From the IMG/VR virus record IMGVR_UViG_3300037294_000266, positions 1 through 64,000 of that record: a stretch of DNA of 64,000 nt; one strand, 5' to 3'. The notes below the pieces were generated by a model that was not told where the DNA came from, did no database searches, and worked only from the letters and a program-made list of their open reading frames with translations. Origin of the DNA: a virus. The translations under genes and the position numbers were made by a program. Shown in pieces: positions 2,369 to 50,373 of the stretch; the stretch's first letter is position 1, and each line of letters starts with the position of its first letter.

Positions 2369-2488
2369 TTCTTGTTTCTCCGGAGTTGTGCTGCGCGCGC
2401 AGCGATAAATGCGATACCTGAGTTCTCTTTAGCGTCCCTCAGGACATGCGCAATTTTGCATACCATTGCAATAAACTCGCAACGGCCT

Positions 2489-3037
2489 TCAATAAAATAC
2501 ATGGTCTGTTGGTATTTCGTCTACGAAGCGTTGGAACACGCCCGTCTTAGAAACACTGCGTTGACCGATTCGACCGTGGAGTAACTTAGACACTTTCTTA
2601 GCGAACGTGGAGTTATCAGCCAGTTGATCTTCACTGCACTGACCGACAGGGATCAGACGCACTACCAGGGTTTCCAACTCTGTGAATTCAACTTCGACAC
2701 AGAGGCCGTCATTGATCATTGCTTCGTTAGTCGCCCCATAGATAAGAGTATCTAACGAAACATTAGCGCAGCTAGCACGTTCTTCCAAAGTAGGAGTTGG
2801 TAGAGCCGCATCAAAGCTGGCCATGATTACAGCGCGTTCGGCTGGGGCGTCAATACCGAACTTGACCAGTACATCACTGGCTTGAAAGTTCAGCATCTTG
2901 TAAATCAAAAGATCTCTGGGTGATAGTATGCCAGAAAGTTTTTCACAGTCAGCAAGATCATCGGACGTGACCTCCAGCTCCTTCATCACGAGGTTGAGCC
3001 AGCACGGTACAATGACCAATTTGATTTTGCTCATCAT
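2489..3037 (-). CDS. Hypothetical protein, 182 residues
   Basis: Not recognised. A soluble, mildly acidic protein with no signal peptide or membrane segment. It begins with two adjacent ATG codons after an AGAGGATG ribosome-binding site; the first is used here. It is divergent from the helicase gene, with only 39 nt between the two starts, so their promoters must overlap or lie inside coding sequence. It is followed leftwards by the capsid gene after a 120-nt gap with no obvious terminator, so it could be co-transcribed with it. Confidence 0.7.
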   Translation of the reverse strand: MMSKIKLVIVPCWLNLVMKELEVTSDDLADCEKLSGILSPRDLLIYKMLNFQASDVLVKFGIDAPAERAVIMASFDAALPTPTLEERASCANVSLDTLIYGATNEAMINDGLCVEVEFTELETLVVRLIPVGQCSEDQLADNSTFAKKVSKLLHGRIGQRSVSKTGVFQRFVDEIPTDHVFY

Positions 3038-3076
3038 CAGAATTCATCCTCTATTAGAGCAGTTTAGGACTATAGA

Positions 3077-4645
3077 ATGGACATCAAGTTATTCCTAGTC
3101 AAATCCGTTTCGCTGTTGTTTCTTGAAAGTCAGCTGGAAGGCTACCGGTCAGCAAACGCAACGATAATCAGACAGATCCTTACGGATCTCAAGCTCCCCG
3201 AAAACATCGGAGAGATCGGTGATGGGAGAAATGTCCTGTCGAACCTTCGCACCACAGTACTGTGGATGATTAATGAAGGTGATTCACAGAGATATGAGCC
3301 AGATACGCTCTTGCAGCGACTGCGCATGAATCTCCAATCGGACGAGACTACCTATAAAGCGTTCGAAAAGACCATCCGCGCTTACGCTGACGAGTCGGTT
3401 ATACGTAAGCACATTAACGACATTGGCCGAGAGTTACGTCGTTATAAAAGTCGCGAGAAGCTTAATGAGATCATGCGTAAAGCATCGTATCAGTTAGCGT
3501 TTCGTGAAGCAGAGATTGAAGATTGGGACGGGTTCATTCTTAACACTGCCCAAGACCTTCTTTCGGTTGACATGGAGAACGAAGAGAAGACAGACCCTGC
3601 CTTCATTACTAGTGTTAACTTCACCGATCGCGATTCCGTTGTCAACGCGTTTGATGACATGCATAAGTCGATGAGTACTGAAGGCATCATCAAGTGGCCA
3701 CTTAAGGCACTCAATCGGATGATGGGTAAACAAGCTGGAGGCCGGCGCGGTGAGTTCGGTCTTGTCAATGCCCTACCCGGCAACAACAAGTCAGGAACGC
3801 TTCTAGACCTCTTTGTAGGGACGTGTATCTTTAACGACCCTTATGTATTCAATGAAGGAAAGAAACCGCTGGTGCTGCTCTACAGTACCGAGGATGACGT
3901 GCCAGTCATCATTCAGAAGATCTACGTGATCCTCAAGCAGTTAGAACTCGGTCATGCGGTGTCACTTAAGGGTGTGTCGGCTACTGAAGCTGCTGACTAC
4001 GTCATGGGTAAACTGCAGGCTCGAGGATGGTACGCTGAGATTCACCGTATCAAGGGTTCTCAATTCAGCTATGCCAAATACATCAAACACCTTGAGCAAT
4101 ACAAAGCAAAAGGGTACGAGGTATGTGCATCGTTTGTTGATTACTTGGCCATGTACAGTAAAGACGGTTGTGTCCAAGGTTCTACTGGTGACGATCTTCA
4201 AGATCTTTACAAGCGTGTTCGTGAATACACAGCTCCTGAGAAGATCCTTCAGGTAACTGCACACCAGTTGTCTACTCAGGCAAAAGAAGAGAAGCGGATG
4301 AACCCGTCTAAGTTCATTCGAGACATGCCAGGTGGTGGTTACTACCAAGGCTGTAAGAAACTTGATACTGAAGTGGATTGGGAGTTCTACATCAACAAGC
4401 AGGTGGTTAACAACGGCACCTACTTCGAATACCTCTGGGGTAAACATCGTGGCGTGGTTGAGCCGACAGCGGAGACTCATAAGTACTTTGTAATGAAGTG
4501 CAATGATAACCACATGTACGGTATTCGTTACGACTATGATCTCGAGGAAGATCTGAGTTATAAGATCGTAGGCGGACGACCTAGTTCGGCTGGCGGTGGG
4601 ATGGCTTGGAACGACATTGAAGAAATGAACGACATGGCTGCATAG
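3077..4645 (+). CDS. DnaB-like replicative helicase
   Basis: Predicted hexameric 5'-3' replicative helicase that unwinds the fork for phage DNA synthesis. Residues 1-170 form an alpha-helical N-terminal region, and the RecA-like motor follows. The Walker A position near residue 229 reads ALPGNNKSGT, so the usual GxxxxGK[ST] has lost both glycines but keeps Lys-Ser. The Walker B region SFVDYLAM (about residue 350) and the later QVTAHQLS segment (about residue 390) match the DnaB H2/H3 'DY' and 'Q-L' motifs. The length of 522 residues fits phage DnaB-like proteins. It stands alone on the plus strand and ends at a hairpin shared with the convergent gene. The odd P-loop is probably a family trait rather than damage, because the rest of the frame is intact. 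Confidence 0.85.
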   Translation: MDIKLFLVKSVSLLFLESQLEGYRSANATIIRQILTDLKLPENIGEIGDGRNVLSNLRTTVLWMINEGDSQRYEPDTLLQRLRMNLQSDETTYKAFEKTIRAYADESVIRKHINDIGRELRRYKSREKLNEIMRKASYQLAFREAEIEDWDGFILNTAQDLLSVDMENEEKTDPAFITSVNFTDRDSVVNAFDDMHKSMSTEGIIKWPLKALNRMMGKQAGGRRGEFGLVNALPGNNKSGTLLDLFVGTCIFNDPYVFNEGKKPLVLLYSTEDDVPVIIQKIYVILKQLELGHAVSLKGVSATEAADYVMGKLQARGWYAEIHRIKGSQFSYAKYIKHLEQYKAKGYEVCASFVDYLAMYSKDGCVQGSTGDDLQDLYKRVREYTAPEKILQVTAHQLSTQAKEEKRMNPSKFIRDMPGGGYYQGCKKLDTEVDWEFYINKQVVNNGTYFEYLWGKHRGVVEPTAETHKYFVMKCNDNHMYGIRYDYDLEEDLSYKIVGGRPSSAGGGMAWNDIEEMNDMAA

Positions 4646-47028: not shown

Positions 47029-49011
47029 CTAGATAGGTTCAATACGGGTGATTGCATTCGGGTTGACTAATCTGATCCCGTCTTCAAAGAAGCCGAGTTC
47101 CTTTGCCGTCTTAACCTTGTCAGGACCTGCGCCATAACCTACGAACACAAAGTCGGTTTTCTTACTGATGCTCTTTGTTAACTTACCGCCGCGAGCGACG
47201 ACATCGTTTTCCATTTCACTACGAGTCTTGCCATCGAAGTTACTTCCAGTGACCACGACAGTCTTTCCAATGAGATCTTGGATTTCTGCCTTAGGTACCT
47301 TAGGTGCAGTGTACGTCAGGATCTTATCAAGTGCTATCAGATCATGCATCATCCCTAAGCTCGCCCCATTTAGGTTAGCAGCAACCTTAGGACCTACGTC
47401 TGGGATTAACTGGAGCTCTAATGGATCAGCCGACAGCAGTTCACTGAAGTTGTGATACTTGACAGACAGCGCCTTTGCTGTACTGTCCCCAATCTCAGAG
47501 ATTCCCACCGCCCTCAACACTTTATAGAAAGGTTGTGACTTGGAACGCAAGATGCTGGCTTGGATCTTGTCAGTCATTGTTTCACCAAGACCCGCACCCA
47601 AGAAGTCTTCTTCAGACAAATGGAATAGCGAGCTAAAGGATCCCAATGAACCGATGTTGATCAATGCCTCTACCGCGGCAGGACCAAGGTTCTTCACATC
47701 GATACCATCACGACTTACAAAGTAAGCCATACGGTTGACGATTTGTGCAGGACACGTTGTCGAGTTGCTGCAATATAGTTCAATGCCTTCATCATCACGT
47801 TTCGAGACGGGCGAACCACAACACGGACATTCGGTAGGCGTCGATATGACGCCGTGGTCGTCCATTCTAAGCGACAGTACCACAGATTCAATCTTAGGTA
47901 TTACGTCGCCTCGACGTGACACCACTACCGTATCCAGAATACGCAGGCCGAGTCGCTCTATTTCTTCGAAGTTGTGTAACGTGACACTGCTAATGGTCAC
48001 GCCGCACAGCTTAACAGGCTTGATCTTAGCCACTGGCGTCAGGACGCCCGTACGGCCCACCTGTACCTCGATCGACTCGAGGACTGACGTTGTTGTCTGT
48101 GCTTCGAACTTGTACGCTACAGCCCACCGTGGAGACGTAGAACGGTTACCTAGCTTAGCGCGTACCTTGGGATCGATGATCTTGAGTACCATGCCGTCAA
48201 TATCGTAGTCCAGTTCATGCCGCCGTCTTTCAATATCGGCAATAGTGTCCATGATTTTGTCGTTAGAGCTGAGTAGCCCCTTCCACAGACTTTCGACCGT
48301 GTAGATCTGATCTAAGATTCCTTCACCCAGATGTTCAAGAGGCATCGACTCGGTCTTGCCGTTACGGTGCACAATTACATCGTAAGCAATGAAACGAATC
48401 CCCATACCCTGAAGACTTTCGCCTTCCTTACGGCGCATGAGACCGGCTACCATGTTACGAGGGTTGGCGTAGACCTTCTTACCCGCTGCCAGCCGGCGCT
48501 CACACGCCTTCTCAAAGAAGTGGTGAGGGACGATGCATTCGCCACGGATCTCTACCTTACCTTTGTAACTGATCTCGCTTGGAACCCCTTCAAAGTAAAC
48601 AGCATTGTCGGTGATATCATCACCGATTTCACCATCACCTCGAGTCAGACCTGTTTTGAGCTTGCCTTTGTCGTAAAGGAGATCAAGACTGCCGCCGTCT
48701 AACTTATATTCGAGAGACGCATAAGGCGCCATGCCAATGCTAGTGATCCAATCGAGGAGTTCTTCCTCGTTGTAAACGTTCATCAGACTGAGCATGGGTG
48801 ACAGATGACTTACTTTCGAGAATCCGCCATCAGAAGCAGCACCAACCATGTTAAGTGGGGATAGCGGATCGTCAGTTTCCCCCTCCAACTCTTTAAGCTG
48901 GCGTTTAAGGGAATCGAACACTTCATCAGTAACGTCTGATTCGCCCTGATTGAAATACAGATCGCTCAGACGTTTGATCTCTGCCCTTAAGGCGATGATG
49001 CGGTTGTTCAT
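47029..49011 (-). CDS. ligA: NAD+-dependent DNA ligase
   Basis: Seals nicks in replicating phage DNA using NAD+. The 660 residues cover the full bacterial LigA set. The adenylation motif EYKLDGGSLDLL puts the catalytic Lys near residue 103. An OB-fold follows, then a four-cysteine zinc finger (CPCCGSP, later CSNSTTCPAQ), HhH repeats, and a C-terminal BRCT domain (KTVVVTGSNFDGKTRSEME). The ATG at 49011 has AGGGG upstream; a longer frame overlaps the neighbour. Long ligases of this type are known in phages of the phiKZ/OBP kind from memory. Confidence 0.93.
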   Translation of the reverse strand: MNNRIIALRAEIKRLSDLYFNQGESDVTDEVFDSLKRQLKELEGETDDPLSPLNMVGAASDGGFSKVSHLSPMLSLMNVYNEEELLDWITSIGMAPYASLEYKLDGGSLDLLYDKGKLKTGLTRGDGEIGDDITDNAVYFEGVPSEISYKGKVEIRGECIVPHHFFEKACERRLAAGKKVYANPRNMVAGLMRRKEGESLQGMGIRFIAYDVIVHRNGKTESMPLEHLGEGILDQIYTVESLWKGLLSSNDKIMDTIADIERRRHELDYDIDGMVLKIIDPKVRAKLGNRSTSPRWAVAYKFEAQTTTSVLESIEVQVGRTGVLTPVAKIKPVKLCGVTISSVTLHNFEEIERLGLRILDTVVVSRRGDVIPKIESVVLSLRMDDHGVISTPTECPCCGSPVSKRDDEGIELYCSNSTTCPAQIVNRMAYFVSRDGIDVKNLGPAAVEALINIGSLGSFSSLFHLSEEDFLGAGLGETMTDKIQASILRSKSQPFYKVLRAVGISEIGDSTAKALSVKYHNFSELLSADPLELQLIPDVGPKVAANLNGASLGMMHDLIALDKILTYTAPKVPKAEIQDLIGKTVVVTGSNFDGKTRSEMENDVVARGGKLTKSISKKTDFVFVGYGAGPDKVKTAKELGFFEDGIRLVNPNAITRIEPI

Positions 49012-49058
49012 GGATTGCCCCTGTCGAGCAAAAGAAAGATTCGGGTAACCGCCCACCC

Positions 49059-49532
49059 TCACTCGAGAGGATCGGTTCTCACTTTAACAATGTTTACCAA
49101 AGTACGGCCTAGCGAAGCATCTAATGGATCAATGTCTTTAAGGTGTACCGTCAGGCGAAACGGCTTTAGAGCCGAGTGATTAAGGAGATGACCGCCAACG
49201 TACTGGACTCTCCCATGCAATACCCACAGTTCGTTTACTTTTACGAACCCGTGTACAGAAACATGCCCGATCTTCTTTGGTTTCAAGTGAGCATAAATGT
49301 CAGAAATGGTCGCAGACCGATCCTGAGTACTTGGGAGCCAAGGGTGTTCGGCTAAACGCCGTTTTGGCCAACCGGTCATGATCGGAAGAGGGTCTTCTTT
49401 TAAGCACTCCCAGAGTTGCTCTTCAGTGAAACCTTCAGAGCCATCAATCTGAAGTTCTACTTCGGAGTCATGTGCTTGAAAGCGACTCCCTACATTCAAA
49501 TCGTCATCAAGTAACGCTATAGACTGCTGCAT
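49059..49532 (-). CDS. Hypothetical protein, 157 residues
   Basis: Not recognised. Acidic N-terminal helix, then a beta-rich middle (KKIGHVSVHGFVKVNELWVL). Its stop is 47 nt from the ligA ATG and it begins 11 nt from the SspB-like gene, so it belongs to the same unit. No catalytic motif visible. Confidence 0.6.
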   Translation of the reverse strand: MQQSIALLDDDLNVGSRFQAHDSEVELQIDGSEGFTEEQLWECLKEDPLPIMTGWPKRRLAEHPWLPSTQDRSATISDIYAHLKPKKIGHVSVHGFVKVNELWVLHGRVQYVGGHLLNHSALKPFRLTVHLKDIDPLDASLGRTLVNIVKVRTDPLE

Positions 49533-49543
49533 GACACTTCCTT

Positions 49544-50026
49544 TTATTTGACGACAGTCAATGTCGGTCGTTTTGCTGGAGGTTCGGGTGGCTGTGGCGG
49601 TATCTCACCAGCCACAGCGCCAGCCGCACTGTAAGGACGTAGAACAAGCGATCCACATAAAGGCGACATGATGATGGTGGTTGGATCCAAAAGCATCATG
49701 TCATCGCCTGCTGGGCCGATACCGACTATGTCACCCAGTAAGATTCGAATAGTGAATGGCTGGCCTTTAAAGCGCGCTTCAAACAGCAGGTGATTGTTAT
49801 CACGTCGCTGATTGACTGCTGCCATTGAATTGACGTTGAAAATGACAAAACCTGACACACTACCCAAGTCATCTGCACTAATGACATGGTCGATCATTTG
49901 TGGATTGTCCTGTAACAACTGCTCAGTGGCAAGAACATAGAGGAATACCTTGACCTCCAGACTTTCAAAATAGGCCCGATACCCTAAATACTGGATCATG
50001 CAGAGTTCGTTAATATCGATCTTCAT
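49544..50026 (-). CDS. SspB-like ClpX adaptor
   Basis: A 160-residue protein similar in layout to E. coli SspB, which binds ssrA-tagged proteins and delivers them to ClpXP. Residues 60-112 (FVIFNVNSMAAVNQRRDNNH, then FEARFKGQPFTIRILLGDI) match the SspB core 'IVLNI-PRAV-NL' and 'F-ARFGG-P--I'. A linker (131-150) is followed by PPQPPEPPAKRPTLTVVK, and the last eight residues resemble the SspB XB tail RPALRVVK that docks on the ClpX N-domain. It would recruit the host protease, possibly to a phage-chosen substrate. The N-terminal 55 residues are less like SspB. Confidence 0.82.
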   Translation of the reverse strand: MKIDINELCMIQYLGYRAYFESLEVKVFLYVLATEQLLQDNPQMIDHVISADDLGSVSGFVIFNVNSMAAVNQRRDNNHLLFEARFKGQPFTIRILLGDIVGIGPAGDDMMLLDPTTIIMSPLCGSLVLRPYSAAGAVAGEIPPQPPEPPAKRPTLTVVK

Positions 50027-50373
50027 CGAGCATCCCTCGGATTAAGACATAGGTATTCAGGATACGCATCCTTCACCAACCTGACGAGAATAGCCTTACG
50101 CTCTTTCTTGACAGTGCACGGGAATTCAAACACCCTGATATCGTGATCTTTCGAATACAGTCCGTTGAGAAGTTTATTCGAATGCCGCCCAATTGACAAC
50201 TGGTTAAGCTGAGCATCGACTTCTTTACTGACGTGCTCATTCTGCCCTAAGAAGAACCGACCAGTTGCTACGTGTTCTAATACGTAACAGCCTTGGTCAG
50301 TTATCTTACTGCGTTTGCTTCTACCTGAGGACGAGTGTAGCCAGTTGATGGCAGTGCCCTGGGTTTCAGCCAT
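50023..50373 (-). CDS. Degenerate GIY-YIG-like protein
   Basis: A 116-residue protein. GCYVLEHVATGRFFLG (28-43) stands where GIY-x10-YIG belongs, and HVSKEVDAQLNQLSIGRHSN follows as the 'K/R-W-x-x-H-x-x-x-L-x-x-G-x-H-x-N' helix. The second Tyr is replaced by Phe and the conserved Arg of the helix is replaced by Glu, so nuclease activity is doubtful. It may bind DNA. It overlaps the SspB-like gene by four nt. Confidence 0.55.
   Translation of the reverse strand: MAETQGTAINWLHSSSGRSKRSKITDQGCYVLEHVATGRFFLGQNEHVSKEVDAQLNQLSIGRHSNKLLNGLYSKDHDIRVFEFPCTVKKERKAILVRLVKDAYPEYLCLNPRDAR

Follow-up and report, generated by a model that had tools for sequence, protein, structure and literature searches.

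The stretch of DNA analysed here, called the window, comprises positions 1-64,000 of the virus record IMGVR_UViG_3300037294_000266, which totals 266,646 bases. On its minus strand lies a gene whose product is, by sequence comparison, a very divergent homologue of SspB, which in bacteria delivers substrate proteins to the ClpXP protease (Table 1). The open reading frame is a real gene. Its ATG overlaps the stop codon of the upstream frame by four bases (ATGA), and downstream lie a 157-residue protein for which no family match was found and a DNA ligase. The same order of genes (GIY-YIG, SspB-like, unknown, NAD ligase) occurs in Pseudomonas phage pPa_SNUABM_DT01 (DT01), the one clear relative returned by tblastn with our query; scans of viral contigs with the query, its DT01 orthologue and the alignment of the two yielded no relatives. 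The syntenic DT01 protein, PA10_00271 (QTH80469.1), likewise has an SspB core, ends in RPSLKVVK and is already annotated as a 'putative ClpXP protease specificity-enhancing factor'. It is 29% identical to our protein and 8 residues longer.

Within the window lies a set of jumbo-phage genes, for a major head protein, a DnaB-like helicase, ribonucleotide reductase and dihydrofolate reductase. Elsewhere the record encodes a chimallin homologue, which aligns to the nuclear-shell protein of phiKZ along almost all of its length (25% identity, E 2e-26), and DT01 likewise encodes a homologue of this protein. Because of the chimallin homologue and the jumbo-phage genes, the source virus is probably a nucleus-forming jumbo phage. 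Its host, judged only by the relatives of the phage, would be Pseudomonas-like.

Table 1. Positions of the SspB-like gene, its parts and neighbours, and of two further genes of the same record
Feature	Position	Strand	Remarks
NAD-dependent DNA ligase	47029..49062	-	syntenic in DT01, 66% identity
Downstream ORF, 157 aa, function unassigned	49059..49532	-	same place in DT01, 36% identity
SspB-like ORF (P0001), putative adaptor	49544..50026	-	160 aa, ATG start
XB-like C-terminal tail PPAKRPTLTVVK, residues 149-160	49547..49582	-	candidate docking peptide for the ClpX N-domain
Proline-rich linker, residues 105-148	49583..49714	-	low model confidence; 16% identity to DT01
Central SspB-like region, residues 58-104	49715..49855	-	phmmer alignment to H. 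influenzae SspB; model and PDB matches
Upstream overlapping ORF, degenerate GIY-YIG-like 'endonuclease' family	50023..50373	-	PHROG 13862, E 6e-29
Second SspB-like ORF, outside the window	78792..79271	-	found by the same kind of HMM
Chimallin homologue, outside the window	153359..155155	-	

Homology to SspB

An earlier note on this DNA had read the core of the protein as SspB-like and had proposed alignment to SspB and structure prediction as checks. We built a hidden Markov model (HMM) from 11 SspB sequences (10 phage, 1 cellular), the phage proteins having been gathered with cellular SspB as query, and left out both our protein and its DT01 orthologue. Among the 1059 frames of at least 30 residues in the window, the SspB-like frame ranked first with 20.6 bits (E 2e-5); the runner-up scored 7.0 bits, and the highest of 2000 shuffled query sequences 6.4 bits. 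The DT01 orthologue matched the same model at E 9e-15. With the tails removed, a core-only model still gave the query 16.8 bits (E 2e-4). When aligned by hhalign to five SspBs, the query alone reached E 2.5e-7, and the query together with its orthologue E 4e-14. The central region (SGFVIFNVNSMAAVN...FEARFKGQPF...GDIVGI) belongs to a core that retains the conserved Asn, Ala, Arg and Gly positions of SspB. Thus the SspB-like core, as first read, was borne out by profile methods, which do not depend on that reading by eye.

Simpler searches returned little. The query does not match the Pfam family model: a search with it against SspB (PF04386) gave nothing at E<=1, and the DT01 orthologue, tail included, scored 21 bits (E 4e-4), short of the Pfam cut-off of 27. 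The match of the query to PHROG 8945, 'stringent starvation protein SspB-like', was marginal (E 0.0041, residues 42-103). In a single-sequence phmmer search of the PDB, SspB chains came out on top, yet at a non-significant E of 0.2. Because these matches are weak or absent, the case for homology rests on the profiles, the orthologue and the tail.

Structure prediction pointed the same way with moderate confidence. The AlphaFold2 model, computed from a 12-sequence alignment that contained SspBs but not the DT01 orthologue and in which the N-terminal helix was misplaced, had a mean pLDDT of 58; residues 61-100 were modelled best, at about 73-82. Its 13 best PDB matches were all gamma-proteobacterial SspB chains (E 1.4e-4 to 1.6e-3, probability 1.00), followed by a gap to E 0.09, and its viral structure matches included proteins annotated as SspB. 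TM-scores to SspB were 0.49-0.57 of the target. Two attempts at realigning the core fragment left the N-terminal part misaligned, and a single-sequence control gave a pLDDT of 35 and no usable fold. Since the alignment already held SspBs and the control was uninformative, the model supports the SspB fold but is no independent proof of it.

The C-terminal tail and its phage relatives

The protein ends in GEIPPQPPEPPAKRPTLTVVK, with KRPTLTVVK as its last residues. A C-terminal XB (ClpX-binding) motif is thus present after the linker, a candidate docking peptide by its sequence. Only this frame, one of the 1059 in the window, ends in the pattern P-x-[LI]-x-[VI]-[VI]-K. Cellular SspB (PF04386; Salmonella, E. 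coli) is likewise built of a core, then a linker, then an XB tail, with RPALRVVK in place of RPTLTVVK. Identity to the cellular proteins is about 17-23%, and the linker of our protein is short and proline-rich whereas theirs is long and acidic; the acidic stretch of enterobacterial SspB is missing from it.

Conservation between our protein and the DT01 orthologue is uneven: 67% identity over the last 12 residues, 32% in the central region, 28% in the N-terminal part and 16% in the linker. The earlier note's reading of the C-terminus as an XB motif agrees with this retention and with the uniqueness of the pattern in the window. At the same time, the SspB-like gene shows the lowest identity (29%) among the 12 genes whose matches between the window and the DT01 locus cover most of the gene; the others reach 34-66%. 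A fast-diverging core joined to a constant tail suggests that the client side of the protein has changed and the ClpX side has been kept.

XB-like tails recur across diverse phage SspBs (RKKPTLRVVK, KKPTLTVVK, SRPKLTIVK, ERPSLKVVK, TPKLTVIKGGKK), and related tails end most of the phage proteins in our set, the exceptions being LucasX and two Vibrio proteins. Phage SspBs are already known, and ours is a new divergent one, not a new system. One was reported earlier in Pseudomonas phage pf16 (gp18, tail KKPTLRVVK; PMC5587285); since it is about 54% identical to cellular SspB, it is much closer than our protein to the host protein, and it belongs to a T4-like phage in which chimallin was undetected. 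Erwinia phage RAY, a nucleus-forming jumbo phage, encodes a cytoplasmic SspB-like ClpXP adaptor, gp039 (PMC10299810), which shares with our protein the SspB core and the tail PTLTVVK but is 17% identical and lies in a different neighbourhood. The Pseudomonas jumbo phages phiKZ (gp232), PhiPA3, 201phi2-1, Phabio, Noxifer, EL and Psa21 also encode an SspB core with, mostly, a related tail; unlike ours, these proteins mostly have longer C-terminal regions, several of which end in IKGGKK or IEGGKD. The phiKZ protein (local coordinates 2471-3379), which carries no annotation, has 302 residues and the C-terminal tail PKLTVIKGGKK. In phiKZ, PhiPA3, 201phi2-1, Phabio, EL and others these genes are mostly unannotated. 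Among the papers searched, which take in a minority of those behind subscriptions, we came across no phage SspB whose function had been tested.

An SspB-like match was found in 18 of the 22 records searched, but most of these 18 had been chosen because they matched. The unbiased subset consists of nine jumbo phages selected by name, of which five (201phi2-1, EL, PhiPA3, Noxifer, Phabio) gave a match and four (OBP, SPN3US, Goslar, PCH45) gave none. Chimallin was detected in 12 of the 20 other records by a phiKZ-protein query only, so that absences in distant phages may reflect the query. By these counts, SspB-like genes are frequent in the nucleus-forming group without being present throughout, and phages in which chimallin was not detected, pf16 among them, can have them too. 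Vibrio phage D69 (local coordinates 469-1911) has its SspB-like gene near a gene annotated 'protease', with one small frame between them. A tree of 24 cores left 12 of its 21 inner branches open, had very long end branches, and placed our protein beside that of D69, away from the syntenic DT01 orthologue; because it is so poorly resolved, we draw no inference from it on origin or duplication.

Possible roles of the protein

By analogy with cellular SspB, the gene probably encodes a phage tethering adaptor. Its N-terminal and central SspB-fold domain would bind a client peptide, the flexible linker would join this core to the XB peptide, and the XB peptide would dock on the N-domain of host ClpX, thereby tethering the adaptor to ClpXP. 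In favour of this reading, the C-terminal peptide of SspB competes for the zinc-binding domain of ClpX (PMC7226468), and the RAY relative gp039 is cytoplasmic (PMC10299810). If the adaptor works in this manner, a protease central to the host would be reprogrammed by nucleus-forming phages. Since such genes are widespread and present in the model phage phiKZ too, a tractable system would be at hand for asking which proteins in the cytoplasm, outside the phage nucleus, these phages seek to have degraded or protected.

The main rival to delivery is competition, because in vitro the turnover by ClpXP that depends on another adaptor, RssB, is inhibited by SspB, or by the SspB tail peptide on its own (PMC7226468). 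The phage protein would dock on ClpX by its tail and deliver nothing, and host SspB and other N-domain adaptors would be displaced, so that phage proteins are protected or the host stress response is altered. Such a decoy would fit a protein whose tail is its most conserved stretch while the whole is the least conserved of the matched genes, and competition with host SspB at RseA was proposed by the authors of the pf16 study (PMC5587285). The conserved SspB residues kept in the core would, however, be superfluous in a pure decoy, and we consider this explanation unlikely.

It is more improbable still that the protein serves as an auxiliary to ribosome rescue, binding ssrA tags as host SspB does and speeding the removal of truncated products during infection. 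Homology to SspB and the presence of ssrA complexes among the best PDB matches would agree with such a role, but the relation of the core to SspB is distant, a gamma-proteobacterial host has its own SspB for the task, and no tmRNA was found above the Rfam cut-off in the phage record. A weak tmRNA match of 28 bases and 15 bits lay below the cut-off and was rejected.

The notion, raised in the earlier note, that the overlapping GIY-YIG gene might be a partner, with one protein serving the other as client or cofactor, is barely credible. The two genes adjoin and overlap in the window and in DT01, yet the pair was seen side by side only there. The phiKZ members of the two families are separated by about 23 kb (gp232 at about 229 kb, the GIY-YIG relative gp272 at about 252 kb), and other phages carry their SspB-like genes in other contexts, for example near thymidylate synthase (phiKZ, Phabio, Noxifer), so the upstream frame is probably a neighbour and not a partner.

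A second SspB-like gene

The record contains another SspB-like frame (Table 1), which the HMM search placed at 78960-79259, with a DT01 orthologue at 208426-208902; the two are 56% identical. On a model built without any of the four proteins, this pair scored E about 1e-7, a stronger match than that of the query. The tails of the pair, AELQLVRRQ in the record and SELQLVVRRS in DT01, are degenerate and only loosely XB-like. Nucleus-forming phages of this lineage might carry two diverged SspB-type adaptors, of which one has kept the canonical tail for docking on ClpX and the other has a changed tail (ELQLVRR). The two would split ClpXP delivery between two sets of clients, or one would regulate the other; we regard this arrangement as possible but rather doubtful.

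No convincing second copy was found in the other records searched, and an extra SspB-like frame beside the 201phi2-1 gene, at 0.9 bits, was unsupported. In Aeromonas phage phiA8-29, two different proteins (A0A1W6DXU6 and A0A1W6DY71) match the SspB-like model, and this phage may therefore carry two copies.
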